From assembly GCA_002067865.1 (NCBI GenBank), contig MVRC01000005.1, positions 1 to 64,000 of the forward strand: DNA of 64,000 nt. The letters are read 5' to 3'. Below the pieces are notes generated by a model that was given only the letters and a program-made list of their open reading frames with translations, was not told the origin of the DNA and searched no databases. The position numbers were made by a program, and so were the translations under genes. How positions within the stretch are numbered: the stretch's first letter is position 1; each line of letters opens with the position of its first letter. Below, piece by piece: positions 8,623 to 32,100 of the stretch. The DNA is from Methanomassiliicoccales archaeon PtaU1.Bin124. GTDB lineage: Archaea; Thermoplasmatota; Thermoplasmata; Methanomassiliicoccales; UBA472.

Positions 8623-8632
8623 GGTATGCAGG

Positions 8633-9259
8633 ATGAGGTGCGGCAAGATCGTCTGCGTGGGCCAGAACTACAGGGAGCACATCAAGGAGCTGAAGAACGA
8701 GGAGCCGACCGAGCCGGTGCTGTTCCTCAAGCCCAGCACGGCGCTGATCGGAAATGGGGACCCGATCTTCATTCCTGCTGGGATCGGCCGGGTGGATCAC
8801 GAGATCGAACTGGCTTTGGTGCTCGGCAGGCCTGGGAAGAACATCCCCAAGGACAAGGCCTTGGGCCATGTCTCTTCCGTGGCGGTGTTTAACGATGTCA
8901 CGGCCAGGGACATGCAGAACGCGCATCGCAAGGTGGGGCTCCCATGGTCGTTGTGCAAGGGCATGGACACGTTCGCCCCGATGTCCGAACCGATCCCACT
9001 GAGCGGCATCGATGACATCCACGATCTTCAGCTGGATCTGCGGGTGAACGGGCAGCTGAAACAAAATGGGAACACGCGGCAGATGATCTTCACCCCCGAG
9101 ACGTTGATCTCGTACATCTCCCGATTCATGACATTGGAGGAGGGAGACATCATCGCCACCGGGACGCCCAGCGGGGTCTCCCCCATAAGGGCAGGGGATG
9201 TTGTGGAGGCCACGATCGAGGGTGTGGGCGTGCTCCGCAATCCAGTTAAGGACGTCTAG
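8633..9259 (+). CDS. Fumarylacetoacetate hydrolase (FAH) family protein
   Basis: A single-domain FAH-fold enzyme of 208 residues, the short form used by 2-hydroxyhepta-2,4-diene-1,7-dioate isomerases, acylpyruvases and oxaloacetate decarboxylases/tautomerases. Seen in sequence: CVGQNYREHIKEL at the N-terminus, metal ligands in VDHEIELALVLG, NDVTARDMQ, the lysine loop LPWSLCKGMDTFAPM, and the C-terminal EGDIIATGTPSGV. The substrate cannot be assigned. ATG 8633 gives the correct family N-terminus; the longer upstream frame overlaps the preceding gene. Its TAG stop is shared with the convergent lhr stop inside a palindromic CTAG. Confidence 0.9.
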   Translation: MRCGKIVCVGQNYREHIKELKNEEPTEPVLFLKPSTALIGNGDPIFIPAGIGRVDHEIELALVLGRPGKNIPKDKALGHVSSVAVFNDVTARDMQNAHRKVGLPWSLCKGMDTFAPMSEPIPLSGIDDIHDLQLDLRVNGQLKQNGNTRQMIFTPETLISYISRFMTLEEGDIIATGTPSGVSPIRAGDVVEATIEGVGVLRNPVKDV

Positions 9260-11997
9260 TCCCAGAACCGCTTGGTCTTCGCATAGTTGATCTCGGCCAC
9301 CAGGATGTCGCGGAGGAAATCGTCCTCGTCCTGATGGAACGAGGCCAGGATGCGGCCGGCCGTGTCCGGGCCGATGCCTCGCCCCGCCATTGCTAGCATC
9401 GCCTTTCTGCCATTCGTGGAGATGAGCGAGGCGTTCTTGTAGAGCTTGCGCAGCTCCTTCTCCTCATCCTCCGACCGCTTGGTCTTCTTCAGCAGCTTGA
9501 TGACGTCCCTATTGTATGAGTAGAGCGCAGCCAGCATGCGACCGTTGCATTGGGGGCAGGTCGGTTTGGACGGGGCGTCCTTCGGCCGCTCGCGGAACTG
9601 GAAGCCGCAGTTGAGGCAGGAGAGGAACATCAGCTCCTCCTCCAGCCTGCGCTTCAGAGCCATCAGGATCGAGTGGTCGGCCCTCTGCGGCGTGATGAGC
9701 TCTTTGGAATGTGCCAGACCGGCCCGGCCGATGGGCGAGAGGCCGCACACCTTGAACTCCAGCTCTCCCGATTCGATGCGCTTTACGACATCGATGGTCG
9801 ACTCCATGTCCAGGTCCTCCCAGAGCACCTTCGACACCGCTTCCTCGAACATGGCGCTCTTCTCATATGCCTCGATCAGGCGGGAGAAGTTGATGTTGCG
9901 GTAATCGGCCTCCTTCTCCACCGCACCGAACTTCTTCGCCACATAGACGAAGCGCCAGCGCAGGTGGCTGGAATTGCGGATGACCATGCGGACCAGCGAT
10001 TCGATGGTGGTCGACCTGATGGAACGCAGCGTGTCGATTATCGTGTCCGGCTTGATGTCCCGCGGCAGGTCGAGGATGATCCGGTATGGGTCGGTCGTTA
10101 CGCCGACGCTCTCCCCCAGCCGGGCCGATAACAGGGTGGAGAGGACCTTGGCAATGGTCTCGTTCACCTTGGTGCCGAAGCAGACGTTGAGGATGGCCAG
10201 CTTCTTTCCTAACTCCAAGGTTATCATACGGTCGGTCGGGACCGCCCCGCTGTCCGCCTGCTCCTTCATGTACTTGGACAGTTCCTGCACGGCCTGGCCA
10301 TCGCCCTTGTATTTCTCATAGTGAGGTTCTCGACGGAGGCGGCCCACCTCTTGGGCCACGCTGTACGGGACGGGAATGTCCTCCCCCACCCAGGATGGTA
10401 TGGAGCCGATGTCCTTCACCTGCTCCACCAGCAGTTCGTCCTCCCGTACCTCCACGATGCGCCAGCTCCTGCCGCGGGTGATGAACGTGGCATATGGTTC
10501 GGCGAAGGAGACGACGAAGCTCTCATCCAGCGTCCCCACTATCGCCCTGGTCCCCAGGTCCCTCACCAGGTAGGTGCGCTCATCGGGGATCATGGAGATG
10601 TTGTCGTAGAAGTACTTCCTGCCCCGGGCGGACTTCTTGTACTCCCCCTCGTTGATGAACACCAGGCCGATGCGGGCCACCAGGTCCAGCACATCATCGA
10701 AGTCCTTCCTCTGCAGGTCCTGGAACGGATAGCTGCGGCATATCGTCCGGTACGCCTCGTCCTTCTTCACCGCCCCGACCATGGACATGGCCACCAGCTG
10801 ATTGGCCAGGACGGTCATGGGGTTCGGCCTTACCCGGATGGGTTCGAGCTCTTCGTGCAGTGACTTGCGCACGATGACCAGGCTCTCCGCGATCTCGTCC
10901 GGGTTGGAGGCGATGATCGCACCCTCGGCCTTTGCCCCGACATGATGCCCAGCCCGCCCCATGCGCTGGATCAGCCTGGCCACCTGGCGGGGTGAATTAT
11001 ATTGGATAGCGAAATCGGCGCTGCCTATATCGATGCCCAGTTCTAGCGAGCTGGTGCAGATGAGGCCTCTCAGCCTCTCCGCCTTGAAGTCCTCCTCCAT
11101 CTCAATGCGTATCTCCTTGGAAAGAGAGCCATGGTGCACCCCCACCTTGAAATTCTCATCCCAGACATGGTATCTGGCAGCCAGCGCCTCTGCGGTATCT
11201 CTGGTGTTCACGAAGAGCAACGTCGATCGGTGCGCCTCGATGATATCCCGGCAGCGGCGCATGCAGGAAATGAGCTGAGGGTCGGACTGCAAGGTCCCTG
11301 CCAGGTCGCGGTCCACATCCGTGACGGCGGGGCATTGCACGCTCAGCTCCATCTGCTTCGATACCTGGGCCTTGACGATGGTGACCTGTCTGTCCGCCCC
11401 GGCCAGGTAATGCGCCACCTCTGGCACGCTGCCGACCGTGGCCGACAGCCCGATGCGCTGGTACTCGCCGGCGAGGTCCACAAGGCGCTCCATGGCGATG
11501 GAGAGCTGCGCCCCCCGCTCGTCATCGGTCAGTTCGTGGATCTCGTCCACCACGAAATAGCGCACGTTCTTGAGGTGGGCCCTGAGGTTCCGCCCGGTGA
11601 ACATGATCTGCAGCGTTTCGGGCGTCGTGATGAGAATGTCAGGTGCGAACTTTGATTGCTTCTGCCGTTCTGACTGAGGCGTGTCCCCGTGCCTCACGGC
11701 CACCCTTAGGTCGAGCGCCTCGCCGAACTCCTCCAGACGCTTGAGCATGTCCCGGTTCAGGGCGCGCAGCGGGGTGACATAGATGCACCTTATGCCCTTT
11801 CCTTCCGTGTTGATGAGCTTGTGCAGCACCGGAAGCATGGCTGCCTCGGTCTTGCCGATGCCAGTAGGGGCGACGAGCAGCACATGCTTTCCTTCCAGCA
11901 CCCTCGGGATGGTATCCCTCTGCGGTCCCGTAGGCTCGTGGATGTTGCGGTCGCGCAGGACCTTCCGGATGCGCTCGTCAAGCAGCTCGAATACCAT
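9256..11997 (-). CDS. ATP-dependent helicase Lhr-type (Lhr-core)
   Basis: A 913-residue superfamily 2 helicase of the archaeal Lhr/ASH-helicase group, probably acting in DNA repair at forks. Motifs in order: TGPQRDTIP (Q-motif area), Walker A APTGIGKTEAA, TPLRALN, TTPETLQ, DEIH box (VVDEIHEL), motif III SATVGS, LLFVNTRD, the motif V area CTSSLELGIDIG and motif VI QRMGRAGH. The winged-helix and C-terminal Lhr domains follow, with a Cys4 zinc site (CLNCGF...CPQCNGR) near residue 830 and a final helix-hairpin-helix-like stretch. Length and order match Lhr1-type archaeal proteins. It is convergent with the FAH gene, with a 4-bp overlap of stops. Confidence 0.93.
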   Translation of the reverse strand: MVFELLDERIRKVLRDRNIHEPTGPQRDTIPRVLEGKHVLLVAPTGIGKTEAAMLPVLHKLINTEGKGIRCIYVTPLRALNRDMLKRLEEFGEALDLRVAVRHGDTPQSERQKQSKFAPDILITTPETLQIMFTGRNLRAHLKNVRYFVVDEIHELTDDERGAQLSIAMERLVDLAGEYQRIGLSATVGSVPEVAHYLAGADRQVTIVKAQVSKQMELSVQCPAVTDVDRDLAGTLQSDPQLISCMRRCRDIIEAHRSTLLFVNTRDTAEALAARYHVWDENFKVGVHHGSLSKEIRIEMEEDFKAERLRGLICTSSLELGIDIGSADFAIQYNSPRQVARLIQRMGRAGHHVGAKAEGAIIASNPDEIAESLVIVRKSLHEELEPIRVRPNPMTVLANQLVAMSMVGAVKKDEAYRTICRSYPFQDLQRKDFDDVLDLVARIGLVFINEGEYKKSARGRKYFYDNISMIPDERTYLVRDLGTRAIVGTLDESFVVSFAEPYATFITRGRSWRIVEVREDELLVEQVKDIGSIPSWVGEDIPVPYSVAQEVGRLRREPHYEKYKGDGQAVQELSKYMKEQADSGAVPTDRMITLELGKKLAILNVCFGTKVNETIAKVLSTLLSARLGESVGVTTDPYRIILDLPRDIKPDTIIDTLRSIRSTTIESLVRMVIRNSSHLRWRFVYVAKKFGAVEKEADYRNINFSRLIEAYEKSAMFEEAVSKVLWEDLDMESTIDVVKRIESGELEFKVCGLSPIGRAGLAHSKELITPQRADHSILMALKRRLEEELMFLSCLNCGFQFRERPKDAPSKPTCPQCNGRMLAALYSYNRDVIKLLKKTKRSEDEEKELRKLYKNASLISTNGRKAMLAMAGRGIGPDTAGRILASFHQDEDDFLRDILVAEINYAKTKRFWD

Positions 11998-12114: not shown

Positions 12115-13323
12115 TCACGCCTTCTTCTCGGCGGGTGCGTCGGCCTTGGGGGCCTCAGGGACAGGGTCCGTGGCCTGCATCAGCAGCTCGGAGATGTCCA
12201 TGACCTTGATATTGACGCCCGCCTTCTTCGCGCCCTGCGTCAGGTTGAGCACGCAGAACGGACAGGAGGTGACCAGGATCTCGGCGCCGGTCGCTGCGGC
12301 CTCCTTGACCCTCTCCGCCGCGATGTTGATGGCGAAGTCGTTGTTGGCGGACTTGAATCCGCCGCCCGCGCCGCAGCAGCGGGAGTCCATCTTGACGTGC
12401 TTCATCTCTACAAGCTGGATGCCTGGGATGGCCTTGATGCACTCGCGGGGCTCGTCGAACACATGGGCGTGACGGCCCAGGTGGCACGGGTCATGGTAGG
12501 TGACCTTCGCCTTGATCTCCTTGGTGAACTTGAGCTTCTTGTCCTTGATGAGCTGCGCGGCCATCTGGGTGAAGTGCTGTACCGGGAATGGCGGGTTGCC
12601 ATAGTAGCGGCCGTAGTCGTGAGAGGTGGTCTTGTAGCAGCCAGCGCAGGTCATGACCATGGACTGGGCACCCATCCTCTCGGCCTTGGTGATGTTGTTC
12701 TCGGCGAATCCTGCGGTCAGCCTGGTCTGGCCAGTGCGCAGCGCCGGGGAGGTGCAGCACCATTCGTCCGCTCCAAGGGTGTTCAGTGTGACGCCACCCC
12801 TGCTGAGCACGGTGACACCGGCCTTGGCCGGGGCGTTCATACGGTATGAGGCGGTGCAGCCAGCGAAGAACACTGCCTGGGGGTTGGGGCTCTTGGGGAC
12901 CTCCTTGGGCCACCATGCCGCCCTCTTCTCCCTCGGCTCGGCGTACGGGTTACGGTTCTCCTCGAGGCGCTCCCTGATCTGAACATGAGCGGGCAAGGGT
13001 CCCTTCCCCTGCTCCACGACCCATTCCCTGGCGGTCTCCCAGAACTCTGCGAACTCGATGCTCACGTGGCATACGGTCCAACAACGGGCGCATCCGGTGC
13101 ACCAGAACAGTGCGTCGACGAACTCCTGGTCAACCTCGACCTTGCGGCCGAGCATGCGGTCGAGCGCGGTCCTCTTGGCCAGTTGGCTAAGGTAGAAAAC
13201 CTTCCCACGCGGGGAGTTAGACTCCCAGGGGGCCTGGGCGTAGGTGTCGCATACCTGAACGCAGTAGCCGCACTGAAGACAAGCGGACAAGTCCCTTTCC
13301 ATGCTCTTCGGAAGCTTCGCCAT
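12115..13323 (-). CDS. HdrD-like Fe-S oxidoreductase with two CCG domains
   Basis: A 402-residue protein with two N-terminal 4Fe-4S motifs (CLQCGYCVQVC and CTGCARCWTVC), then two cysteine-rich CCG domains: C...WCCTS...CAGC, and C...RCCGAGGGF...CPFC. CCG domains hold the noncubane clusters that split or reduce disulfides in heterodisulfide reductase HdrB/HdrD. GlcF and lactate-dehydrogenase subunits share this layout. No hdrE, hdrA, hdrC or flavin oxidase gene is adjacent, so a soluble HdrD-type role is inferred, not shown. The C-terminus carries an Ala/Pro/Lys-rich tail. A TATA-like sequence at 13395-13403 implies a leader of about 50 nt. In Methanomassiliicoccales, HdrD homologues have been proposed to work with an Fpo-like complex. 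Confidence 0.85.
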   Translation of the reverse strand: MAKLPKSMERDLSACLQCGYCVQVCDTYAQAPWESNSPRGKVFYLSQLAKRTALDRMLGRKVEVDQEFVDALFWCTGCARCWTVCHVSIEFAEFWETAREWVVEQGKGPLPAHVQIRERLEENRNPYAEPREKRAAWWPKEVPKSPNPQAVFFAGCTASYRMNAPAKAGVTVLSRGGVTLNTLGADEWCCTSPALRTGQTRLTAGFAENNITKAERMGAQSMVMTCAGCYKTTSHDYGRYYGNPPFPVQHFTQMAAQLIKDKKLKFTKEIKAKVTYHDPCHLGRHAHVFDEPRECIKAIPGIQLVEMKHVKMDSRCCGAGGGFKSANNDFAINIAAERVKEAAATGAEILVTSCPFCVLNLTQGAKKAGVNIKVMDISELLMQATDPVPEAPKADAPAEKKA

Positions 13324-15534: not shown

Positions 15535-15623
15535 TCCCGGCGTCATCTGGTCATGCCCGCTGCCATGTGTTTCTACGATAGCTTTATATTCCTTGGATAA
15601 ATGCCCAAGCTCGTCCTGCTTAC

Positions 15624-15633
15624 TTTATAAATC
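15624..15633 (+). promoter_or_regulatory. TATA box of the Ehr-type gene cluster
   Basis: CTTTATAAAT is centred about 26 bp upstream of the tandem ATGATG at 15651-15656. The spacing implies a leaderless or nearly leaderless first message for the seven-gene cluster. A second AT-rich element (GCTTTATATT) occurs about 45 bp further upstream. Confidence 0.6.
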
Positions 15634-15650
15634 CGAGGCTGGAGTCCACG

Positions 15651-17720
15651 ATGATGGTGTCGTCCATGGGCGTCCAAAGCCTCGGACGTGAGATGGTAGG
15701 AATGTATTCCCAATCCCTCTTTCAGGCGCTCATCATCATCCTCTTGATAGGCGCGGCATGCGCGGCGATATTACATAAGCACGCAAAGCTCAGCAGGTCT
15801 GTCGCATGCTCGGCGGTTTTCATATCTGCATCGGCCGGGGCATGGCTTGCGATCGATGTCATCCTCAACGGGCCCGTGCAGTTGGGCGTGTCCTTGGCAA
15901 CGTTCTTCGGCGACTGGACCGTTTCGCTCGATCAGATCGGCGGTTACTTCCTTCTCATGGTCTGCATGATCATGGCCTGCGTCGCCGTGTACTCGCTCGG
16001 TTATCTAAAGGAGTACGATGGCAAGTATGACGCCGGTCTGATGGGAGGGCTGCTCTGCCTGTTCTTCCTCTCGCTCGTTCTCGTCATCTCTTCCAATAAC
16101 ATCATCTTCTTCCTCATCTCCTGGGAGCTCATGTCGGTCCTCTCGTTCCTGCTCGTGATGTATGAAGGCAGGAAGGAGGGGGTGGCACCAGCAGGCCTTC
16201 TATATCTGATTATGACGCACGTGGGCACGGCCTTCATCACCGTGTCATTCCTGTTGATGGCAAATTACACCGGCTCCTATGCGTTCTCCGATATCGCAGC
16301 TGGCTGGGCATCCATCCCCATGGACGTCCGCTCGGTCTGCTTCGTGTTCCTCCTCATCGGGTTCGGGACCAAGGCGGGTATGGTGCCCGTGCATATCTGG
16401 CTACCAGCCGCACATCCGGCCGCTCCGAGCAATATCTCCGCCCTGATGTCCGGCGTGATGGTCAAGATGGCCCTCATAATGATGGTCCGCAGCTTCTTCC
16501 TGTACCTCGGGCCGGTCCAGACATGGTGGGGCCTGGCGATCCTGCTCATCGGTTCGATCTCCGCTCTGGTGGGCGTGCTGAACGCGCTCAAGGAGACGGA
16601 CATCAAGTCCACCCTGGCCTACTCCACCGTGGAGAACATGGGGATAATCTTCATCGGTCTGGGGGCCTCGCTGATATTCGATTCCTACGGCCTGACGGCG
16701 TTCGCGGCGCTGGCATTGATCGCCACGCTGTTCCATGCGCTGAACCACGCGGTCTTCAAGGCACTGCTGTTCCTTGGCGCCGGGTCCGTCCTCCACGCCA
16801 CCCACACCCGCAACATGGAGGCGATGGGCGGGCTTGCCAAGCGCATGCCCTATACCAGCGCGGCGGTGCTCATAGGGCTGTTGTCCATGGCGGCCATCCC
16901 TCCCCTCGGAGGCTTCGTGAGCGAATGGCTGTTGTTCCAGTCATTGCTCCTTTCCGCGAACATACCGGACATCCTCATCAAGATCATCATCCCCGTCTCG
17001 ATCGCCCTGCTGGCATTGACCGGGGCGCTGGCGGCCACGATGGCCGTCCGTTTCTTCGGCACGGTCTTCCTGGCCCGGCCCCGCAGCGAGAGGGCGGAAG
17101 ATGCGCACGAATCTCCCCGTTCCATGCTCATAGGCATGGGATTCCTGGCGATCATGTGCTTCGTCCTCGGTCTGGCATCCTTTGCCATTCTGCCCTATAT
17201 CGACAACGTATCGGCGTCGGTCCTAGGCGTCAGTATCACTTCGCAGTTGGTCGATGGCATCTTCGTCAGTCCCATCAGCAGCGACTTCTCCACCATGGCC
17301 CCATTGCTCATCGCCGTGCTGGCCATCGGCATACTGGGGCTCACCTGGGGAATGGTGCGCATGTATGGGGGGAAGCAGGTGGTGCGCGAGACCGACACCT
17401 GGGACTGCGGTACGCCGCTCGGCCCGCGCAACGAATACACTGGGACCGCGTTCTCCAGTCCCCTCGTCAGGATATTCAGCCCCATCTATAGGTCTCAGAC
17501 AGAGATCAGGACGGAGTTCACCGCCTCTCCCTATGTGAAGAAGAGGATCACTTACGGCCTGAGATTCACTGACATCTTCGAGAAGTACTTCTACCGCCCG
17601 CTGGTGAGGTTCATCACAGCGGTCTCAAAGCGTCTGGCAGTGATCCAGACCGGCAGCATCCAGGCCTACCTGGCGTACATCTTCATCATGCTGCTGCTCC
17701 TGCTCGTCATCTTCAGGTGA
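15651..17720 (+). CDS. HyfB/NuoL-like antiporter subunit of Ehr-type complex
   Basis: A 689-residue polytopic membrane protein of the NuoL/MrpA/HyfB family. The proton-channel residues look retained: the TM5 glutamate (LISWELMSVLSFLLV) and the TM7-region lysine (GFGTKAGMVPVHIWLPAAHPAA), followed by SALMSGVMVKMAL, STLAYSTVENMGII and ALNHAVFKALLFLGAGS. It extends at the C-terminus beyond the core fold (residues about 560-689), as in HyfB, with a final TM helix. It should pump protons or Na+ as the first of two antiporter-like subunits here. The gene is first in a run of seven tightly spaced genes. Starts at 15651, 15654, 15666 and 15693 are possible; the TATA box favours the first two. Confidence 0.92.
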   Translation: MMVSSMGVQSLGREMVGMYSQSLFQALIIILLIGAACAAILHKHAKLSRSVACSAVFISASAGAWLAIDVILNGPVQLGVSLATFFGDWTVSLDQIGGYFLLMVCMIMACVAVYSLGYLKEYDGKYDAGLMGGLLCLFFLSLVLVISSNNIIFFLISWELMSVLSFLLVMYEGRKEGVAPAGLLYLIMTHVGTAFITVSFLLMANYTGSYAFSDIAAGWASIPMDVRSVCFVFLLIGFGTKAGMVPVHIWLPAAHPAAPSNISALMSGVMVKMALIMMVRSFFLYLGPVQTWWGLAILLIGSISALVGVLNALKETDIKSTLAYSTVENMGIIFIGLGASLIFDSYGLTAFAALALIATLFHALNHAVFKALLFLGAGSVLHATHTRNMEAMGGLAKRMPYTSAAVLIGLLSMAAIPPLGGFVSEWLLFQSLLLSANIPDILIKIIIPVSIALLALTGALAATMAVRFFGTVFLARPRSERAEDAHESPRSMLIGMGFLAIMCFVLGLASFAILPYIDNVSASVLGVSITSQLVDGIFVSPISSDFSTMAPLLIAVLAIGILGLTWGMVRMYGGKQVVRETDTWDCGTPLGPRNEYTGTAFSSPLVRIFSPIYRSQTEIRTEFTASPYVKKRITYGLRFTDIFEKYFYRPLVRFITAVSKRLAVIQTGSIQAYLAYIFIMLLLLLVIFR

Positions 17721-17724
17721 TCAC

Positions 17725-18675
17725 ATGGTCCAGGACGTCCTCCTCAACTCACTGTTCGCGGCGCTCCAGGCCGTCACCATGTTCGCCCTGTCGCCTTTGA
17801 TCATTGGAATCATCCGCAAGGTCAAGGCCTGGTTCCAGAGCCGCAAGGGTTCCAGCATCTGGCAGCCATACTACGACCTGGCAAAGCTCCTGCGCAAGGA
17901 CTCCACCATGTCCAAGGATGCATCTTGGATATCCCGCGCCACCCCATACATCGCGATCGCATCGGTGGGAGTGGTGGCGCTCATGGTGCCCTTCTTCACG
18001 ACCTATTCGCTCGGTTTCGTGGGCGACCTCATCGTGGTGGTCTACCTCCTCGCCCTTTTCCGTTTCTTCATGGTGCTGGCCGGCATGGATGCGGGAAGCA
18101 CCTTCGGAGGCATGGGCAGCAGCAGGGAGATGATGGTCTCGTCCATCGTCGAGCCGACCATGCTACTGGCCATCTTCACCATGGCGCTGATCACAGGCAC
18201 GACCACTCTGTCCTCGATATCATACAGCCTGGCAGTGACCGGGCCGGACCTGGTCCGACCAGCCCTGTTCCTCGCGCTGGCCGCGTTCTTCATATCATTG
18301 CTGGCAGAGAACGCTAGGGTGCCTGTGGACAATCCGGCCACCCACCTCGAGCTCACCATGATCCACGAGGGCATGCTCCTGGAATATTCCGGGAAGCAGC
18401 TGGCCCTTATGGAATGGGCCTCCTGGACCAAGTTCCTGTTGTTCTCCGCCATATTGGCCAATGTGTTCTTCCCGTGGGGCATCGCCACCGACCTGTCCGC
18501 CCTGGGGATGGCCGTCGGCGTCATCGCCATCATCGCCAAGGTGCTGGTCATAGCCCTGGCCGTCGCGCTCATCGAATCAGGCACATCCAAGATGCGCCTG
18601 TTCCGCCTGCCCAACCTGCTGACCGAATCCTTCACTCTGGCGCTACTGGCTGTGATGTCGTTCTATATCCTGTGA
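17725..18675 (+). CDS. HyfC/NuoH-like membrane subunit of Ehr-type complex
   Basis: A 316-residue membrane protein of the NuoH/HyfC/EchB family, which anchors the soluble redox arm and forms the path coupling redox chemistry to ion movement. Signatures: GIIRKVKAWFQSRKGSSIWQPYYDLAKLLRK near the N-terminus and the conserved loop ENARVPVDNPATHLELTMIHEGMLLEYSG. About eight TM helices are visible. It begins 4 bp after the HyfB-like gene. Confidence 0.93.
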   Translation: MVQDVLLNSLFAALQAVTMFALSPLIIGIIRKVKAWFQSRKGSSIWQPYYDLAKLLRKDSTMSKDASWISRATPYIAIASVGVVALMVPFFTTYSLGFVGDLIVVVYLLALFRFFMVLAGMDAGSTFGGMGSSREMMVSSIVEPTMLLAIFTMALITGTTTLSSISYSLAVTGPDLVRPALFLALAAFFISLLAENARVPVDNPATHLELTMIHEGMLLEYSGKQLALMEWASWTKFLLFSAILANVFFPWGIATDLSALGMAVGVIAIIAKVLVIALAVALIESGTSKMRLFRLPNLLTESFTLALLAVMSFYIL

Positions 18676-18684
18676 GGTGAGAAG

Positions 18685-19344
18685 ATGACCCAAGAACTCC
18701 TGACCGACACCATCAACGGGCTGGCCGCCATCGTGCTGCTCACCTCTTTCTTCCTCGTGGCCAACACGCGCATGCACCAGCTGGTGCGGACGTTCACGCT
18801 CCAATCCCTGGCATTGGGACTGTTCGCATTCTTCGTGGCCTATTACACTGGCGCAGAGCACATCTACCTGGTCGCAGTGCTAACCATCATCATCAAGGCG
18901 ATCATCATCCCGAGGTTCCTGGACTATACCATAGAAAAGATCCAGGTGAAGAAGGAAGTGGAGCCGCTGGTCGGCATCCCGCTCTCCCTCCTGATCTGCA
19001 CTGGGCTGGCGTTCATCGGCTATTACATCGCCGAGCCGGTCATCGCCAACGGCAACATCATCACCAAGAACTGCCTGGCCATATCCGTGGCCGTCGTTCT
19101 GATAGGCTTCTATCTCATGGCATCGCGGCGCAAGGCGATGAGCGAGGTGGTGGCGTTGCTGGTCATCGAGAACGGATTGTTCCTGGCGGCCATATCCATC
19201 ACCTACGGCATGCCTCTCATCGTGGAGCTGGGCATATTCTTCGATGTGTTCGTCACGGTCCTGATCATGGGTGTGTTCGTCTTCAAGATCAACCGCACCT
19301 TCGAGACGCTGGACACGAGGTTCATGAGGAGGCTGAGGGATTAA
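18685..19344 (+). CDS. HyfE-like membrane subunit of Ehr-type complex
   Basis: A 219-residue protein with about six to seven TM helices. It matches the HyfE family, which combines a NuoK-like core with extra helices: LTIIIKAIIIPRFLDYTIEKI and MSEVVALLVIENGLFLAAISITYGMPLIVELGIFFDVF (acidic residues within membrane segments, as in NuoK). It starts 9 bp after the HyfC-like gene with a good purine-rich ribosome site (GGTGAG) just upstream. Confidence 0.9.
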   Translation: MTQELLTDTINGLAAIVLLTSFFLVANTRMHQLVRTFTLQSLALGLFAFFVAYYTGAEHIYLVAVLTIIIKAIIIPRFLDYTIEKIQVKKEVEPLVGIPLSLLICTGLAFIGYYIAEPVIANGNIITKNCLAISVAVVLIGFYLMASRRKAMSEVVALLVIENGLFLAAISITYGMPLIVELGIFFDVFVTVLIMGVFVFKINRTFETLDTRFMRRLRD

Positions 19345-19345
19345 C

Positions 19346-20809
19346 ATGATGATCGAGCTCATCCTCCTACTGCCGCTGATCGCGGCCGCCATCTCCTACT
19401 TCGTCAAGCAACAGCATGTGGCCGAGGCCGTTTCCATGCTGTCCGGCGTATTGCAGTTCATCCTGGCGCTGCTGATCGCGGTGGACGTGATGCAGAACGG
19501 CGCCATCCAATATGGCCTCTGGTATGCCGACGAGCTGAGCGTGTTCATGCTGGTGATCATAACCTTCCTGGGCAGCATGGCAGTGGCCTATTCGTTCAGC
19601 TATATCGGTCATGACAGGGAGGAGCACGAGATATCCGGCCTACAGCTGCGCCGTTACTACCTCCTGCTGCAGCTGTTCCTGTTCACCATGCTGGTCGTCG
19701 TGCTGACCAACAACCTGGGCATAATGTGGATAGCGATCGAAGGGACCACGCTGACCTCCGCCTTCCTGGTGGGGTTCTACGAGAAAGACACATCCCTCGA
19801 GGCCGCCTGGAAATACCTCATCATCTGCTCCGTGGGCATATCCATGGCCCTGTTCGGCGTGGTGCTGACCTATGCCTCATCGGTCGATGTGGCGGGCTTC
19901 CCCTCCGATTCGCTGAACTGGACTGACCTGCGTTCGGTCGCAGCCCTCCTGGACCCGACCTTCCTGCGCATCGCCTTCATCTTCATCCTGATCGGCTACG
20001 GCACCAAGGTAGGATTCGTGCCGATGCACACCTGGCTGCCCGATGCACATTCCCAAGCGCCATCCCCCATCAGCGCCATGCTTTCGGGCGTGCTGCTGAA
20101 CTGTGCGCTCTACGGCATCCTGCGCTTCTACATCATCATGCAGCTCTCGGTTCCCGGCTTCGCTCCCGACCTGCTGTTGATATTCGGCGTGATATCATTG
20201 GTGATGGCCGCGGCCTTCATCATCCTGGCCAAGGACTTCAAGCGTCTATTGGCGTACAGCTCGATCGAGCACATGGGCATCATCGCCCTGGGCTTCGGGA
20301 TCGGTGGGTTCCTGGGGATCTTCGCCGGGCTGCTGCACATGCTGAACCACGCCCTCACCAAGTGTCTGATGTTCTTCGGTGCTGGAAATATTTTGCAGAA
20401 GTACAACACCCGCTCCATAGCGGAGGTGCGGGGCCTGGCATATATCATGCCCATCACCGCGGCCCTATTCCTCTTAGGGGCGCTAGCCATTACCGGCTCC
20501 CCGCCCTTCTCGATATTCCTCAGCGAGGTGATGGTGCTGCAGGCGGGGCTCGGGGCGGGCTCCTACCTGGTCGTGGCCATCTACCTGTTCGCCATTTTGG
20601 TAATCTTCGCGGCGTTCATGTACCACGTGTCCAAGATGCTGTTCGGCAAACCCACGGAGGGCGTGGTCCGGGGCGAGATCCATCACGTTTCCTTGATACC
20701 CATGGCCATCCTGCTGGTCTCGATACTGGTGATCGGCCTGTTCCTTCCCCAGCAGCTCATGGACTTCATCACGAAGGTCGCGGCGCTCTTCCCGGGGGGT
20801 AGCCGATGA
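19346..20809 (+). CDS. HyfF/NuoN-M-like antiporter subunit of Ehr-type complex
   Basis: A 487-residue, roughly 14-TM second antiporter-like subunit. Channel residues are retained: the TM5 glutamate (MWIAIEGTTLTSAFLVGFYE), the TM7-region lysine (GYGTKVGFVPMHTWLPDAHSQAP) and LLAYSSIEHMGIIALGFGIGG, followed by HMLNHALTKCLMFFGAGN. Its ATG lies one base after the HyfE-like stop, and its end overlaps the next gene by 4 bp, which suggests translational coupling. Two antiporter-like subunits imply more than one ion translocated per cycle; that is inference from complex I. Confidence 0.92.
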   Translation: MMIELILLLPLIAAAISYFVKQQHVAEAVSMLSGVLQFILALLIAVDVMQNGAIQYGLWYADELSVFMLVIITFLGSMAVAYSFSYIGHDREEHEISGLQLRRYYLLLQLFLFTMLVVVLTNNLGIMWIAIEGTTLTSAFLVGFYEKDTSLEAAWKYLIICSVGISMALFGVVLTYASSVDVAGFPSDSLNWTDLRSVAALLDPTFLRIAFIFILIGYGTKVGFVPMHTWLPDAHSQAPSPISAMLSGVLLNCALYGILRFYIIMQLSVPGFAPDLLLIFGVISLVMAAAFIILAKDFKRLLAYSSIEHMGIIALGFGIGGFLGIFAGLLHMLNHALTKCLMFFGAGNILQKYNTRSIAEVRGLAYIMPITAALFLLGALAITGSPPFSIFLSEVMVLQAGLGAGSYLVVAIYLFAILVIFAAFMYHVSKMLFGKPTEGVVRGEIHHVSLIPMAILLVSILVIGLFLPQQLMDFITKVAALFPGGSR

Positions 20810-22392
20810 ACAGAATGATCCTATCAGAGCTGGTGGAGGACCTTCCACCCGTTTTGCGTACCGGCATCAGGTGGGAGCTGCAGGATGACGGCTCTCTCAC
20901 CATCGACGTAGGCGAGGAGGCCCTGCCCGGGATCGTCGATCACATCCAGAAGAAATATCATTCGTGGCTCATCTCCGAGCATGCCTTGGACCTCCGGCCC
21001 AAGGGCGGCGAGTTCCAGCTCATCGTGCTCCTGGGCCTGCCGAAGGTGACCGTGCCGGTCATCATCAGGGCCAATGTCGACATCTATGCGTCGTCGTTCC
21101 ATTCATTGACGCCATCGGTGCCTGCGGCCAATTGGTTCGAGCGGGAGATATCGGACACCTTCGGTCTGACCCCGAACGGCCATCCTGACCAGCGCCCCCT
21201 CGTGCTCTATGACGACTGGCCATACGGAACATATCCGTTGCGCAAGGATTTCGACCCCTCCAGGCCTGTGCCCAGGGTGCCGAGCGAATATCCGTTCCGC
21301 AAGGTCGAGGGAGAGGGCGTGTTCGAGATCCCGGTCGGGCCGGTGCACGCGGGTGTGATCGAACCGGGTCACTTCCGTTTCAGCGTGGCCGGGGAGCCGA
21401 TAATCAACCTGGAGATACGAATGGGCTATACCCATCGTGGCGTGGAGAAGCTGTCGGAATCATTGCCGTACCACCGGGGCGTGCCGCTCGCCGAAAGAAT
21501 CTCCGGGGACAACGGTTTCACACATGCGCTGGCATATTGCCAGGCGGTCGAGTCGCTGGCAGGGTGCGCGGTGCCCGATAGGGCCCTGTTCATACGCACC
21601 ATCCTCTCGGAGATGGAGAGGCTGTATTGCCACATGGGGGACGTGGGCGGGATCGCCCTGGACACGGCGTTCGGGACAGGGGCGCAGATGGCATACATCC
21701 TCCGCGAGCGCCTGATGCAGCTGAACGATCAGGTGACGGGCAGCCGTTTCCTGCGCTCGGCAAGCTGTCTGGGCGGCGTGAGGTGCGATATCCCTGTCGA
21801 TTCGAAGAAGGACATCCAGAGGACGCTCCTCCAGGTCAAGCTCGATTTCGATGACTTCGTGACCACCATCAAGAACATGCCTTCCTTCCTGGACCGGGTC
21901 GAGACGACCGGGGTGCTCACGCTGGAGAACGCCCGCAGCCTCAATGTGGTCGGTCCGGTCGGAAGGGGCAGCGGCATCGATCGGGACGTGCGCCGCGATC
22001 ATCCCTACGCAGCCTACGACCAGATCTCATTCCAGGTGCCTGTCTACCGAGAAGGGGACGTCTGGGCCCGCACCCGTGTCAAGATCGACGAGGTCTACGA
22101 GTCGATCGGGATAATCGAGCAGGCGCTGGACAAACTGCCTTCCGGGGAACTGTGCGTGCCGTTGGGCGAGGCGCCGGAGGGAAGGACCGGGCTCAGCCTC
22201 ACCGAGACGCACAGAGGGGAATGCATGCACTGGCTTATGGCCGGAAAGGGCCAGCCTTACCGGCACAAGGTGCGGGACGCTTCGTTCCTGAACTGGCCAG
22301 CCATCGAACTGGCCGTGCTGGGCAACATCGTTCCCGACTTCCCCTTGGTGAACAAGAGCTTCAATCTATCATATGCGGGGAATGATCTATGA
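20806..22392 (+). CDS. HyfG-like large subunit (NuoC-NuoD fusion) lacking Ni-Fe ligands
   Basis: A 528-residue fusion. Residues 1 to about 165 are NuoC-like (WFEREISDTFGL, RPLVLYDDWP, YPLRKDF). The rest is a hydrogenase-large-subunit/NuoD domain (GPVHAGVIEPGHFRFSV, EIRMGYTHRGVEKL). In true [NiFe] hydrogenases the first metal motif is a CxxC in RxCGxC; here it reads RISGDNGFTH (residues about 230-239), with no cysteine. The C-terminal DPCxxC is also absent, the protein ending in NKSFNLSYAGNDL. All four Ni-Fe ligand cysteines are thus missing, so hydrogenase activity is not expected. This is the mark of Ehr-type complexes and of complex I NuoD. It overlaps its neighbours by 4 bp on each side. 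Confidence 0.92.
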   Translation: MNRMILSELVEDLPPVLRTGIRWELQDDGSLTIDVGEEALPGIVDHIQKKYHSWLISEHALDLRPKGGEFQLIVLLGLPKVTVPVIIRANVDIYASSFHSLTPSVPAANWFEREISDTFGLTPNGHPDQRPLVLYDDWPYGTYPLRKDFDPSRPVPRVPSEYPFRKVEGEGVFEIPVGPVHAGVIEPGHFRFSVAGEPIINLEIRMGYTHRGVEKLSESLPYHRGVPLAERISGDNGFTHALAYCQAVESLAGCAVPDRALFIRTILSEMERLYCHMGDVGGIALDTAFGTGAQMAYILRERLMQLNDQVTGSRFLRSASCLGGVRCDIPVDSKKDIQRTLLQVKLDFDDFVTTIKNMPSFLDRVETTGVLTLENARSLNVVGPVGRGSGIDRDVRRDHPYAAYDQISFQVPVYREGDVWARTRVKIDEVYESIGIIEQALDKLPSGELCVPLGEAPEGRTGLSLTETHRGECMHWLMAGKGQPYRHKVRDASFLNWPAIELAVLGNIVPDFPLVNKSFNLSYAGNDL

Positions 22393-22730
22393 AGGTCACC
22401 AATCTGTTCAGGTTCTACCGTCTGGGAGTGGGTAAGAGGGGCGTGGTCACGACACGATACCCCAACGGCCCGGCGGAACTTCCAGCAGCTGCCCAATGCG
22501 CCCCCGAGCTCACTGGGAAGTGTGATGCCTGTGGTCATTGTGCAGAGGCCTGTCCTACCAAGGCGATCGCTGTCACGACATCTAAGTTCACCATCGACCT
22601 TGGTGACTGCATCTATTGCGGAGAATGTGCCCGCGGGTGCCCCAAGGGATCAATCGTAATGGGAAAGAATTGCGAGCTTTCCGCCCGCAAGAGGGAAGGC
22701 CTGGAGGTGTCCTACGATGTCAGGCAGTGA
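22389..22730 (+). CDS. HyfH/NuoI-like 2[4Fe-4S] ferredoxin subunit
   Basis: A 113-residue electron-transfer subunit with two canonical 4Fe-4S motifs: C45-C48-C51-C55 (CDACGHCAEACP) and C74-C77-C80-C84 (CIYCGECARGCP). It would relay electrons from an external ferredoxin-like donor to the small subunit. It overlaps the HyfG-like gene by 4 bp and the next gene by 14 bp. Confidence 0.94.
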   Translation: MKVTNLFRFYRLGVGKRGVVTTRYPNGPAELPAAAQCAPELTGKCDACGHCAEACPTKAIAVTTSKFTIDLGDCIYCGECARGCPKGSIVMGKNCELSARKREGLEVSYDVRQ

Positions 22731-23187
22731 TTCCGAGCTGGAAGTCCTGGGAGGCCAGATGAAGGACAGGATCCGGAACGTTCTGGGCAGGTCCCTGGCC
22801 ATCCGCGAGGTTGACGCCGGCTCATGCAACGCCTGCGAAGTGGAGGTTAACGCCCTCACCAACCCCATCTACGACATCGAAAGGTTCGGGCTGCACATCG
22901 TCGCCTCGCCGCGTCACGCCGACGCCATCCTGGTCACTGGGCCGGTCACCAGGAACATGGAGCGGGGGTTGGTCCAGTCCTATAACGCCATGGCAGAGCC
23001 GAGGATGGTCATAGCCATGGGCGTGTGCGCCATCGGTGGCGGCCTGTTCCGTGAGTGCTATGCGTGCCACAAAGGGGTCGGGGAGGTCGTTCCCGTCGAC
23101 GTCTATATACCTGGTTGCCCGCCTCGCCCTCAGGCCATAATCCAGGGAATAATGGTCGCCCTGGACAAGTGGCAGCAGAGAAAATGA
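22717..23187 (+). CDS. HyfI/NuoB-like small subunit of Ehr-type complex
   Basis: A 156-residue [NiFe]-hydrogenase small subunit/NuoB homologue. The proximal-cluster ligands are intact: C37 and C40 (GSCNACEVEV), C104 (MGVCAIGGG) and C134 (IPGCPPRP). An extra pair, C114/C117 (ECYAC), is also found in the family. With the cluster intact but Ni-Fe ligands absent in the large subunit, the Fe-S relay probably ends at a site that reacts with something other than protons. It is last in the cluster and convergent with uspA, with 25 bp between the ends. Confidence 0.93.
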   Translation: MSGSDSELEVLGGQMKDRIRNVLGRSLAIREVDAGSCNACEVEVNALTNPIYDIERFGLHIVASPRHADAILVTGPVTRNMERGLVQSYNAMAEPRMVIAMGVCAIGGGLFRECYACHKGVGEVVPVDVYIPGCPPRPQAIIQGIMVALDKWQQRK

Positions 23188-23212: not shown

Positions 23213-23614
23213 TCACTTCACGACTATCACGGTGCAGCGGGAGTTGCGCACGACGTATTCCGAGACCGAACCTATCAGCACCCGGTCCAGAACGGTCTTT
23301 CCCGATGTCCCGACGATGATCGCCTCGGCCTTCACCCTGTCGGAGGCGGACAAGATCGTCTCGTAGGGGTTACCGGCCTCGAGCAGCGTGGTGACCTTGA
23401 TCCCGTGGGCCGCCGCCTCGTTCTTCATCTTCTCCAGGACCCTCATTCCGTCCTGGATGACCTTCTCCTTGTCCTCTTCCGCCTTCGGGCTGACCACAAA
23501 GACGATGAACAACGTGGCGTTGTGCAGCTTGGCATACTCATAGGCATACTTGGTGGCCTTCTCGGAGTGAGGCTTGCCATCAGTGGCCAATAACACATTC
23601 CCGTTCTCAGGCAT
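23213..23614 (-). CDS. Universal stress protein, UspA family
   Basis: A 133-residue single-domain UspA protein. It carries the ATP-binding signature G-2x-G-9x-G(S) as GTSGKTVLDRVLIGS, and begins NVLLATDG as usual. ATG 23614 is supported by a TATA-like element (CATATTTC) centred about 27 bp upstream and by a GGAG just before the start; the in-frame upstream extension is basic and unlike the family. Confidence 0.92.
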   Translation of the reverse strand: MPENGNVLLATDGKPHSEKATKYAYEYAKLHNATLFIVFVVSPKAEEDKEKVIQDGMRVLEKMKNEAAAHGIKVTTLLEAGNPYETILSASDRVKAEAIIVGTSGKTVLDRVLIGSVSEYVVRNSRCTVIVVK

Positions 23615-23674
23615 GCTCCTGCTATCTGAATCATCCCTAGAAATATGTTTTCGACGCACTAACGCCGTTATCTT

Positions 23675-25416: not shown

Positions 25417-26067
25417 TCAATCATCCCAGCCATGGAGGATGGATTGGACAGGCCTTTTACCATTTCGCCGAGAACCGCTGTTCCCCTTGGCCCGCTCGGC
25501 AGGGATGGCCATAAAATCGGTATGGCCGCCATGACATTCAGTACATAGCGTGATGAGATTGCTGGGATGATCGCTGCCCCCTGCCACGACCGGAATGATG
25601 TGGTGGACCTCTGCGTACCAGGCAGGATATCTCCCCAGGTCCCTGCCGCATTCCTGGCAGGCATTGCCATCCCTTTCGATCACTTTCGCCCGGACCTTTC
25701 GCCACGCCCTTTCCTTCAGGAACTGAGGGTACATCGAAGGGAGCAGGGGGATATCACTTCCATCCGGTTCTGCCCCGGGACAGTCTATCATTAAACTGGA
25801 CATATGCTGGTCTGCCATGCATTGAAGTCTTTCCCTGAGGGTGTCATGCCTCGGGCCCTCGCAACGACATCCATCGAGCCATCTCGACCTCGTCCTCAGG
25901 ACCTTCTCTCTTTCCTCATCAGACCAGCCTTGGTGGGGACATGACATGGACACTTCGTTATCACAGAAACCGAGCCTGCGCATGTCCCCCCAACTGTCAC
26001 AATCTGGAAGGGTGCGGAGGCACAGGCTGCGCCTTCCTGGCGCGTCTTGGAACTGGCAATGCTTCAT
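25417..26067 (-). CDS. Cysteine-rich HNH endonuclease-domain protein
   Basis: A 216-residue protein whose C-terminal part has a classic zinc-supported HNH motif: CQECGRDLGRYPAWYAEVHHIIPVVAGGSDHPSNLITLCTECH. The N-terminal half (residues 1-70) has about seven cysteines in pairs (KHCQF, SLCL, PDCDS, GFCD, SCPHQGW, GCRCEG), perhaps another metal-binding module. ATG 26067 gives a 4-bp ATGA overlap with the DUF362 gene, which decides the start over an upstream TTG. HNH domains of this stand-alone type occur in defence, mobile-element and repair contexts; nothing here picks one. Confidence 0.75.
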   Translation of the reverse strand: MKHCQFQDAPGRRSLCLRTLPDCDSWGDMRRLGFCDNEVSMSCPHQGWSDEEREKVLRTRSRWLDGCRCEGPRHDTLRERLQCMADQHMSSLMIDCPGAEPDGSDIPLLPSMYPQFLKERAWRKVRAKVIERDGNACQECGRDLGRYPAWYAEVHHIIPVVAGGSDHPSNLITLCTECHGGHTDFMAIPAERAKGNSGSRRNGKRPVQSILHGWDD

Positions 26068-27254
26068 TTCACATCCCGGCCGGGCCTTCGCTCCATGACC
26101 CGGACCATGATCTTGCCTGCCATGCTCCTTTCCAGATCGATGGCGCCATTGGCGCACATCTCGTGGCAGGTATAGCACCTGATGCAATCCCTCACCCTGA
26201 CCTTCATCCTTCCCCTCACCTGCCTGATCGCCTTAGTGGGGCAGCTCCTCTCGCATCTTCCGCAACCGTTGCATCGATCAGGGTCGATATATGGCCTCAA
26301 TGTGTATGACCTGACCAGCTTGGCCATTCGGCGCACCACCGCTCCCCCGCTGGGGTTGCGGCCCCTCGCATAGGTGGAAGGTAGCCTGAAGTCCTGGACG
26401 GTCAGGTCCTGCAATGCCTCCCCCCTAACTTCTACCTGGAGATCCCCATCGATCGCCCCTCTTTCCACCGCGGCACCGATGGTGGGGACAGAGGCGGCAT
26501 CCAGGCCGATCATTCTTGCCGCCACCACGTCCGCAGCTGCATAGGACGGGCTGGCGATGATCGCACCCAGCTTTCTCGGGTCACCTGAACCCGGTCCATC
26601 GCCCTCCATGCCAACGATGGCATCGATGATCTGCAAAGAGGGCCTCATCAGTTCATTGAGGTCCACGAGCATTCGGGAGAAGTCCATCGGGTCCTGCAGC
26701 CTGCCATGGAACGAGGCCTTCTCCATTCCGGGGACGACCCCGAAGAGGTTCTTCGTGGCGGCGGTCATCTTCGTCAAAAGGTGCGTCTTCAGCTTGGACA
26801 CGACGATCAACACATCCGCCTCGATCGCTGGTTCGATGATCAGGAAACGCTTGACCAGCCGCCCATCTGGATTGGCCACCTCACGATAGGACACGTTCTC
26901 GTTGAGCACGACCCCCAGCTCCTCTGACAGAGAACTGTACCCAGCGGTCTCGTACGCCTTCCGTAACTGGTTCGGCCCGTAGACCGCGCCAGCGCCGGGG
27001 CTCTCCGCCAGAACGACCTCACATCCGTTCTCTCGCAGCAATCGGCATACGGCCCAGATGACGTTAGGGTGGGTGCATACCGCCTCATCCGGCGGAGAGG
27101 CACGGAGGATGTTCGGCTTGACCAGCACCCTCTGGCCCTTCTTGGCGAACCGGTCCAGCCCTCCCAAGAGGTCGATGGCCTCTTTCACCCTCGAATAGAC
27201 CAGTTCCCTGGAATAGTCCTCACACCTCACTAGAGCGACGGTCTGCACGGCCAT
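26064..27254 (-). CDS. DUF362 protein with C-terminal 2[4Fe-4S] domain
   Basis: A 396-residue protein. Residues 1 to about 300 match DUF362 (LVKPNILRASPPDEAVCTHPNVIWAV, ESPGAGAVYG, VVSKLKTHLLTKMTAATKNLFGVVPG, DAIVGMEGDGPGSGDPRKLG). Two ferredoxin motifs follow (CNGCGRCERSCP and CIRCYTCHEMC). DUF362 proteins with ferredoxin tails are widespread in anaerobes and lack a settled reaction; a redox role is inferred. A TATA element (CTTTTTATAT, minus strand, 27271-27280) lies about 21 bp before the ATG, suggesting a leaderless transcript for this gene and the overlapping HNH and GNAT genes. Confidence 0.9.
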   Translation of the reverse strand: MAVQTVALVRCEDYSRELVYSRVKEAIDLLGGLDRFAKKGQRVLVKPNILRASPPDEAVCTHPNVIWAVCRLLRENGCEVVLAESPGAGAVYGPNQLRKAYETAGYSSLSEELGVVLNENVSYREVANPDGRLVKRFLIIEPAIEADVLIVVSKLKTHLLTKMTAATKNLFGVVPGMEKASFHGRLQDPMDFSRMLVDLNELMRPSLQIIDAIVGMEGDGPGSGDPRKLGAIIASPSYAAADVVAARMIGLDAASVPTIGAAVERGAIDGDLQVEVRGEALQDLTVQDFRLPSTYARGRNPSGGAVVRRMAKLVRSYTLRPYIDPDRCNGCGRCERSCPTKAIRQVRGRMKVRVRDCIRCYTCHEMCANGAIDLERSMAGKIMVRVMERRPGRDVK

Positions 27255-29192: not shown

Positions 29193-32100
29193 ATGAGGGG
29201 ATTTGCTCGAACGGCAGCGATAATGCTCGCAGCGGCCATGCTGCTGTCGGCATTACCGGTCGCCTCGATATCCGCGTCGACCGGCACAGCAACGGCCCAA
29301 AGCATATCGTCCGAGCTCACTTCTGTCAAGAACGGTGTCACGACCAGTTACCACCAGTTCACCGCGGCCGAGGTCTCCAACCTGAAGTCCCTGCTTGGCG
29401 TCAGGGTGGAAGGGACCGATTATAATGTGGTGGTCGAAGGTCACGGGACCGGTCTGGCTCCGTTGTCGGTCAAGGAATATGAGACACTGGCCGATACGGC
29501 ATACGTGGTGAGCTCCGTTTCCATGGACGCCACCTACCCCAGCTCCCTCGACCTGTCCCAATCGTCCTGTTTCCCGGCCGTCGGGGACCAGCTTTCCCTG
29601 GGGGCGTGTGCCGCATGGGCGATGACCTATTATTGCTATGGATACCTGGAAGCCGTTGACCAGGGATGGACCCAGGCGAAGAGCGGCGCCACTTCCCAGC
29701 TGCTCAGCCCCTCCTTCACCTATAACCGTATCAGCGATTACAATTCCGGTTCTTCCTTGACCGGGAACGCCCAGGTCATCCGAGATTGGGGCGTCCCGAC
29801 TCTGTCCGTGATGCCTTACAATATCTACGATTATACCACCTGGGGCGACGATGCGGCGATGAGGAATGCTGTGCTGCATCGGGCTGAAAAGGTCATGTAC
29901 ATGACATCGGCCACGACCGATGACATCAAGGCGATCGTTCAATCGGGATGCCCCGTCACGTTCGCTCTTGACGCGACCACTTATGTGTCCGTTTTCAGCG
30001 GGGATGGAGCATCCAAGATCATCTCCGCGGTGGATTACTCCAGCACATCCCTCAACCACGCTCAGACGATCGTGGGATGGGACGACACCATCACCGAGGA
30101 CGGCGATGTGGGCGCATTCCGCGTGGTCAACTCCTGGGGCGTTGGATTCTGCGAGTCGGGCTACTATTGGATCACATATGCTGCGATGGCCGAGATGCTA
30201 GCTCTATCCCCGCCGACCTACATCCAGGATAAGATCGACTACGTGCCTCAGATCACCGCCGTGGTCCAGTTCAGCCAGGCTCCGGCCAGGGACACCACCT
30301 TCACCGCTTACCTTTACAACAATGTGACGGGCGCCAAGGTCAAGACCCGTTCCTTCACCTACAGGACCACCTACTACGGGGGTCCGGCACCGAAGTACTC
30401 AGAGTTCCTGTTTATGGACCTGACCGATTTCGCCGCCTCATACTCCAGCACCAACTGCAAGTTCACCATCGCATTCACCAACGGGGCCACTGCAGGCGAG
30501 GTCAGCAGCTTCCGTATCGAATGGTATGATAACGGATACGTCGTCGGGCAGCCGACGCAAAAATCCGGTTCGGCCATCGGGCTTCCCACCGCCACACCGG
30601 GAACGGTCTCCCTGGCGTTCACCAAATACGCTTCCATGTCCATCGCCTCGGCCCTGGACACCTCATCCCTTTCATTCAGCACCAGCGGGGACGCCTGCTG
30701 GACCCCCGTCGTCAACAATTATTGCTCCGGGGGAGATGCGATGCAGAGCGGCGATATCAGTAGCTCTCACACCAGCAGGCTGACCTCTGTGGTAACTGGC
30801 CCGATGGACCTTTCCTTCTATTGGATGGTCTCGTCCCAATCCGGGGCGGACTTCCTGCAGTGCAGCGTCGATTCAGTGGTCCAGGCCAGCATATCAGGCT
30901 CCACCTCCTGGGCCAAGGTCAGCCTGGCCATCGCCTCGGGCACGCACACCATCAGCTGGGCCTACATTAAGTCAGCCACCACCACCACTGGCCTGGATTG
31001 CGGCTACGTGGATCTCGTTGACACCACCGGCGGCACAAGCGACATCACCGCGCCGACCACCGTCCCCTCCGTGAGCGGCGCCGCCGGTACTAATTCATGG
31101 TACACCGGGACGGTCACCGTTTCTCTGACAGCATCCGATTCAGGCACGGGGGTCCAGGCCACAAAGTATCAGCTCGATTCCGGTGCCTGGTCCACCTATG
31201 CATCGGCCCTGTCGATCACCGCCGACGGAACCCATACCCTGCTGTACTACTCCATCGACAACAGCGGCAACGTCGAGGCCACAAAGACCCTGACCATCAA
31301 GAAGGACTCGGTCTCCCCGGCCACTACCGTCTCTGTTTCCAGCTACATCGTCACCCTGACCCGGGCCGATGCCATGAGCGGGATATATTCCACTCAATAT
31401 CGCATCGATGGGGGCGCCTGGACATCATATTCCAGCCCGTTCACCGCAGGAGCCGCCGGCGGCAGCTATCAGGTAGAGTACTATTCCATTGACAAGGCAG
31501 GCAACACCGAGCCCGTCAACCAGGTCACCGTGGGAGCGACCGACTCCACCGCACCTACCACCGCCCTCGTCGTGGACGGCACCCAGGGGACCGATTACTG
31601 GTATACCACAATGGTGAACGTTTATCTCACCGCCAGCGATGACAGCAGCGGCGTCGCTTCCACCTATTACAAGATCGACTCGGGCGCCTGGACAACATAT
31701 GCCAGCCCCTTCTTGATAAGTACCGATGGCCAGCACAATGTACAGTATTATTCGGTCGACATGAACGGCAACACTGAGGCGACCACATCCACGATGATAT
31801 CGGTCGACCTCTCCGAACCGACCACCAGTGCTTCGGCCATTGGATACGCCGTCACATTGACGGCAGGAGACGCCGGGAGCGGGGTCTCGAAGACCTATTA
31901 CCGCATCTCGTCCGGTTCATGGGCGCAGTACAGTGCACCGTTCAGCGCCGGGGTCTCCGGCTACCAGTACCAGGTGGACTATTACTCCGTGGACCTGGCC
32001 GGGCTGATCGAGGATATCAGGACCATAATGGTCGGAACCGCCGATACGGTCCCGCCGGTGACATCGATCAATGTCCAGGGAACGACCGGCAGCAATGGAT

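Follow-up and report, generated by a model that had tools for sequence, protein, structure and literature searches.

The window analysed here, 64,000 nucleotides of contig MVRC01000005.1 from Methanomassiliicoccales archaeon PtaU1.Bin124, carries a seven-gene operon (15651–23187, forward strand) for a complex of the Ehr class, in which the cysteine (Cys) ligands of the Ni-Fe centre of related hydrogenases have been replaced. Its complete membrane arm, two-cluster ferredoxin subunit, proximal cluster and conserved replacement pocket lead us to favour, with moderate confidence, a ferredoxin-linked ion pump in which the rebuilt former Ni-Fe pocket has another role. Ehr complexes appear from their residues to descend from Hyc/Hyf-like energy-converting [NiFe] hydrogenases after loss of the Ni-Fe centre, and some relatives of the window complex are predicted to hold no redox centre at all.

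Gene content and conserved residues

Open reading frames together with Pfam and NCBIfam matches identified homologues of HyfB, C, E, F, G, H and I, encoded by closely spaced genes with short gaps or overlaps. The Hyf-type order B-C-E-F-G-H-I proposed in a first-pass annotation of this DNA was borne out by these matches and by comparison with the Escherichia coli hyf operon, relative to which hyfA and hyfD are missing. The membrane arm comprises EhrB, a HyfB/NuoL-like antiporter subunit of 689 aa (15651–17720; PF00361; NCBIfam 'hydrogenase 4 subunit B', 660 bits); EhrC, HyfC/NuoH-like, 316 aa (17725–18675; PF00146); EhrE, HyfE/NuoK-like, 219 aa (18685–19344; NF008556 hydrogenase 4 membrane subunit, 106 bits); and EhrF, a HyfF/NuoM-like antiporter subunit of 487 aa (19346–20809; PF00361; 'hydrogenase 4 subunit F', 525 bits). 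These are followed by the large subunit EhrG, a HyfG-type NuoC+NuoD fusion of 528 aa (20806–22392; PF00329 and PF00346); EhrH, a HyfH-like 2[4Fe-4S] ferredoxin subunit of 113 aa (22389–22730; PF12838); and the small subunit EhrI, HyfI/NuoB-like, 156 aa (22717–23187; PF01058), all on the forward strand.

Ion-path residues of the membrane arm were near-invariant across about 100 Ehr loci. The antiporter Glu and Lys residues, which had been described as kept, were present as E159, K241, K370 and E425 in EhrB (conserved in the 100 loci compared) and as E132, K221, K339 and E394 in EhrF, where K221, H335 and K339 were invariant or nearly so. EhrC E143, E195, E209, E215, E220 and E284 were near-invariant among 92 loci, and E162 and E181 of EhrE were conserved. 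Residue comparison likewise showed that the predicted iron-sulphur ligands are retained, namely the eight Cys of EhrH (45, 48, 51, 55, 74, 77, 80 and 84) and the four proximal [4Fe-4S] ligands of EhrI (C37, C40, C104 and C134).

Replacement of the Ni-Fe ligands

Where hydrogenases have RICGxC, EhrG reads ERISGDNGFTH; in the former first CxxC motif (RISGDNGFTH, residues 231–240; 21496–21525, forward strand) S233 and N236 replace Cys and D235 is new. The former DPCxxC motif reads NKSFNLSYAGNDL (residues 516–528; 22351–22389, forward strand), with S522 and G525 in place of Cys and the stop codon directly after, whereas HycE and HyfG carry a further C-terminal extension. All four Cys ligands required in group 4a are therefore replaced. 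None of the seven Cys of EhrG (245, 254, 275, 321, 327, 450 and 473) occupies a ligand site or forms part of a CxxC motif, which rules out Ni-Fe ligands at other sites of the subunit, and the predicted loss of every ligand Cys held when the whole protein was searched.

The replacement pocket (S233, D235, N236, D286, S522, K517 and R470) was conserved, and its signature SGD...NKSFxLSYxG recurred in about 100 homologues, ruling out sequence decay or chance motifs. D286 (codon 21661–21663, forward strand) corresponds to D139 of Thermus Nqo4 and is Gly in relatives with all four Cys. When Cys content was set against residue 286, 105 sequences had no ligand Cys and D286, 11 had four Cys and G286, seven had no ligand Cys and G286, and three showed other combinations. 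Judged from these alignments, loss of the Cys in the main Ehr lineage coincides with a conserved pair of aspartates, D235 and D286.

An AlphaFold model of EhrG had a pLDDT of 88.8, and its best match in a PDB fold search was HycE of E. coli formate hydrogenlyase (FHL; 7z0s_E, TM 0.91), followed by NuoCD of complex I.

Family placement and repeated loss of the Ni-Fe site

A large-subunit tree was computed without the ligand-motif columns and with Mbs absent from the sample. The clade bearing the NKSF signature had full support (100/100) and was sister to HycE/HyfG plus one archaeal relative (100/95), with Mbh outside. Ehr membership is supported because published Ehr from Nitrospira moscoviensis (L042) and Saganbacteria (L090) sit in the same clade; the 59-row branch that joins them with the window EhrG had moderate support (93/59). 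The complex combines homology to the large and small subunits of group 4 [NiFe] hydrogenases and an Mrp-like membrane arm with the absence of the CxxC motifs that bind Ni-Fe. Lost ligands, subunit set and tree position thus agree with the Ehr-type identity first assigned to it. The family profile scored FHL HycE at 362 bits, Mbh at 243 and Mbs (6u8y_L) at 171. Judged by sequence comparison, these results support a member of the known Ehr class, sister to HycE/HyfG and not Mbs-like.

The group 4a enzymes FHL HycE and hydrogenase-4 HyfG share gene order and fold with the window complex and include its closest solved structure, but the window complex differs from them in lacking the four Cys, the C-terminal extension, HyfA/HyfD and formate dehydrogenase. 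Complex I and Fpo share module homology with it. Published Ehr have the same subunits, the same Ni-Fe ligand loss and the same tree family, although most bacterial operons examined have no ferredoxin subunit, whereas the window operon has EhrH. The source studies for the class are said to be those of Coppi in 2005 and Marreiros in 2013.

In the literature, Ehr denotes complexes that lack Ni-Fe ligands and have no assigned function (PMC6349859 and PMC12342949, among others), reported from Geobacter, Nitrospira, candidate-phyla bacteria and ammonia-oxidizing archaea. Expression of Ehr in N. moscoviensis did not rise with H2 (PMC12342949). A Rhodospirillum paper listed for Ehr does not use the name as a whole word in its main text. 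Ehr is already known in Methanomassiliicoccales, from genome MALP of the 'Lake Pavin' clade (Speth and Orphan 2018, PeerJ, PMC6147122), and the window complex adds another member. The MALP complex is of the same class and from the same order of methanogens but a different genome, and the passages found in that paper mention it briefly, without residue analysis.

The nearest clade with intact ligands consists of 11 relatives with the same NKSF C-terminal context (L040, L043, L046, L053, L063, L064, L075, L092, L101, L110 and L118). These keep CxxC...CxxC, with G286 and without D235, and their hosts are Bacillota, Acidobacteriota, Myxococcota, Planctomycetota and one Mycoplasmatota metagenome-assembled genome (MAG). 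They are probably group 4f [NiFe] hydrogenases, a label drawn from PMC10284858. The Cys-less large subunits of Nitrospirae (L088, L093, L098, L099 and L104) read SG[ATV]S and SYSGCD, with G286. Because three Nitrospirae Cys-less sequences in the tree nest among the four-Cys relatives (98/88, 96/84) and the approximately unbiased (AU) test rejected a single clade of all Cys-less members (p 3e-11), the Ni-Fe site was lost at least twice. A relative in a Desulfosporosinus MAG (L078, approximately 4376–5800) has a half-lost site with two of the four Ni-Fe Cys (SGIC...SYAC), and one Omnitrophota member retains one of the four.

Loss of the remaining redox centres

Redox centres were scored at 77 loci, all away from contig ends. 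Among the Cys-less loci, 23 had both the ferredoxin subunit and the proximal cluster, 36 had the proximal cluster with no ferredoxin in the operon and nine had neither; the other nine were eight four-Cys loci and one unscorable. Absence of ferredoxin here refers to a strict two-cluster motif, and a few of the 36 (e.g. L121, L139, L200 and L210) do carry EhrH with one ligand altered. At the Methanomassiliicoccales loci the ferredoxin subunit was always kept and EhrI read CCCC everywhere these positions align, although in some EhrH one first-cluster ligand was changed, from C48 to D, H or S. Since all tested members of the order keep the proximal and ferredoxin clusters, the redox chain seems to be under selection there.

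Proximal ligands were missing at a series of other loci (L068, L070, L077, L080, L084, L085, L089, L112, L113 and L116; L022, L096, L108 and L111; L222–L226). The corresponding residues were TCDD/DCDD, TEGN or SEGD in candidate-phyla-type loci, with TCDD, TEDD or TEGD in further candidate-phyla genomes. The DTDN variant was shared by a Dehalococcoidales, a Methanosarcina MAG, an Altiarchaeales and a genome from the same phylum as the window. The ligand-less EhrI proteins were 48–54 % identical to the window EhrI and aligned almost without gaps, and the tree required two separate losses of the proximal cluster. Wherever the whole operon of such a locus was in view, the ferredoxin subunit was also missing, leaving no redox cofactor ligands. 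Six of the bacterial genomes were searched whole; none had an EhrH match and five had no Fer4_7 domain, which was present in all 14 control genomes. In this set, conservation still extended to the membrane residues and to most of the large subunit. With neither cluster ligands in the small subunit nor a ferredoxin gene in the operon, these loci show, to judge by their ligand residues, that redox-free Ehr complexes exist. A paper on candidate-phyla Ehr remarks on the missing large-subunit Cys and says nothing further on ligands; a literature search, which did not reach key descriptions in subscription journals, found no earlier report of cofactor-free Ehr.

Four candidate-phyla-type ehr operons (L068, L080, L112 and L113) are immediately preceded on the same strand by ATP synthase genes, namely beta and, in most, also epsilon. 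An Altiarchaeales MAG (L111) carries two tandem Ehr gene sets, at 4667–11296 and 15601–20627.

Host and distribution

The host genome carries mcrA and a relative of the complex with 57 % identity is found in a Methanomassiliicoccus MAG, so the host was taken to be a Methanomassiliicoccales methanogen. Its four PF00346 proteins are one of Fpo type, two with intact Ni-Fe motifs and EhrG. The observation that no maturation genes lie nearby holds for HypD, which is single-copy and on another contig; other hyp genes were outside the search. Among 120 genomes of the order, 119 had an HdrD homologue and at least 55 had Ehr, more copies being hidden by contig ends. Other PF00346 large subunits occurred across the order with or without Ehr, which is in Methanomassiliicoccales an accessory beside a widespread Fpo-like complex.

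Predicted function

In the favoured ferredoxin-linked pump, electrons from reduced ferredoxin would enter at EhrH and reach the EhrI proximal cluster. Chemistry in what was the Ni-Fe pocket would power movement of H+ or Na+ through EhrC and the antiporter subunits EhrB and EhrF; the whole sequence could also run backwards. D286, which occupies the place of the quinone-site Asp in complex I, may serve as the coupling carboxylate; it is a candidate for that role and not proof of a quinone site. This reading is favoured because this methanogen has the whole redox chain, maintained by selection. Several points weigh against it. The D286 position is also Asp in the true hydrogenase Mbh, so D286 is not specific to a new function. 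Most bacterial Ehr operons have no ferredoxin subunit and some no proximal cluster, which argues that electron transfer is not needed for the core role of the family. The neighbourhood comparison found no donor, acceptor or partner gene conserved across the family, and the literature yielded no biochemistry of any Ehr. The initial proposal of an ion pump that should react with an electron acceptor is reasonable for the window complex, but it does not extend to the whole family, some of whose members have no redox centre.

Since no electron-carrying site is left in some bacterial relatives, the family may share a role in moving ions and not electrons. We tentatively entertain a family-wide history in which a hydrogenase lineage is becoming an ion-transport machine. 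Two or more losses of the Ni-Fe site would have come first, loss of the ferredoxin subunit next and two or more losses of the proximal cluster last, and the resulting cofactor-free complexes would include the four at the loci behind ATP synthase genes; the window complex would then be an early stage with its electron chain in place. The main rival reading makes Ehr in essence an ion transporter independent of redox chemistry (an Mrp-like antiporter or gated channel), with a regulatory or ligand-binding role for the former hydrogenase arm and with Fe-S clusters that are here sensors or optional; it seems unlikely. The two lineages without proximal ligands (TCDD/DCDD/TEGN/SEGD and DTDN) or EhrH in the operon, the five of six bacterial genomes free of any Fer4_7 domain and the invariant membrane Glu and Lys of the same set speak for it, but every Methanomassiliicoccales locus keeps proximal cluster and ferredoxin subunit, and selection would not keep unused electron transfer parts. 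The role of Ehr, a widespread complex, has been a long-standing question since its first description, and the comparison recasts the search for its acceptor as testable questions: whether any acceptor exists, and which functions D235 and D286 have. The cofactor-free relatives would offer natural test objects for ion movement without electron transfer in complex I-like machines.

Three further readings are less likely. An ion-pumping ferredoxin:heterodisulfide (CoM-S-S-CoB) oxidoreductase formed by Ehr and the neighbouring HdrD, parallel to the Fpo-HdrD model, is improbable. The host is a methanogen, an Fpo-HdrD link has been proposed in the literature for this order, and the HdrD-like and rubrerythrin genes adjoin Ehr in divergent orientation at 17 loci of two families (f1 and f3); Ech moreover follows Ehr in f3, and HdrD adjoins Ech in an Ehr-less genome (G174). 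However, the same HdrD-rubrerythrin-helicase block occurs in Ehr-less genomes of family f4, HdrD is far more widespread in the order than Ehr, family f2 has Ehr apart from HdrD, and bacterial Ehr mostly have no HdrD nearby. Adjacency is weak evidence for partnership, since the block exists without Ehr, and reflects inherited position as much as function. The suggested hdrD-like partner therefore stands as a neighbour in two families but belongs to an older block, and the helicase control and Ehr-less genomes weaken the case for an Ehr-specific partner. A complex I-like reaction, in which a quinone-like carrier of the membrane is reduced where the Ni-Fe centre once sat, is less probable still. 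The match of D286 to Nqo4 D139 and the ubiA/ubiE homologues reported in the order for an unassigned lipid carrier (PMC4153887) are consistent with it. Of the three quinone-site residues, however, D286 alone matched, His38 and Tyr87 (Thermus Nqo4 numbering) being I185 and G234 in EhrG, whereas the large subunit of this genome's Fpo (L001) keeps all three; quinone pathways were also not identified in Ehr-bearing Riflemargulisbacteria (PMC6349859). With one of three residues present, binding of the acceptor probably differs from that of quinone in complex I. A sulphur-reducing complex of Mbs type, the best studied group 4-related non-hydrogenase complex, is very improbable, rejected by its low profile score and by the position of Ehr beside HycE/HyfG in a tree that did not sample Mbs; the placement apart from Mbs anticipated for the complex was thereby upheld.

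Neighbouring genes

The HdrD-like protein (402 aa; 12115–13323, reverse strand; PF02754 twice) has two CCG domains and two [4Fe-4S] clusters, and counts as a neighbour and not as an established subunit; in one genome (G305) the HdrD-like and rubrerythrin genes lie about 20 kb from Ehr. The gene order in family f3 (L193, L204, L205 and L206) is HdrD, rubrerythrin, Ehr, universal stress protein and Ech hydrogenase. A universal stress protein gene (23213–23659, reverse strand; PF00582) stands tail to tail with ehrI in the window and in all 19 loci L120–L138, including family f2, in which other neighbours have changed, so that this neighbour is kept throughout the order. The ubiE-like gene that had been put forward as a partner (51843–52676, so named by reading alone) is 29 kb away and unlinked.

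Elsewhere in the window, a protein that joins DUF362 to a 2[4Fe-4S] ferredoxin domain is encoded at 26064–27254 (reverse strand), and homologues were also found near Ehr in L085, L091, L092, L105 and L120. Two very large proteins of 1890 and 1781 aa, encoded at 29193–34865 and 43552–48897 (forward strand), contain repeated domains and a membrane anchor at the C terminus and have the look of secreted or surface-anchored proteins.

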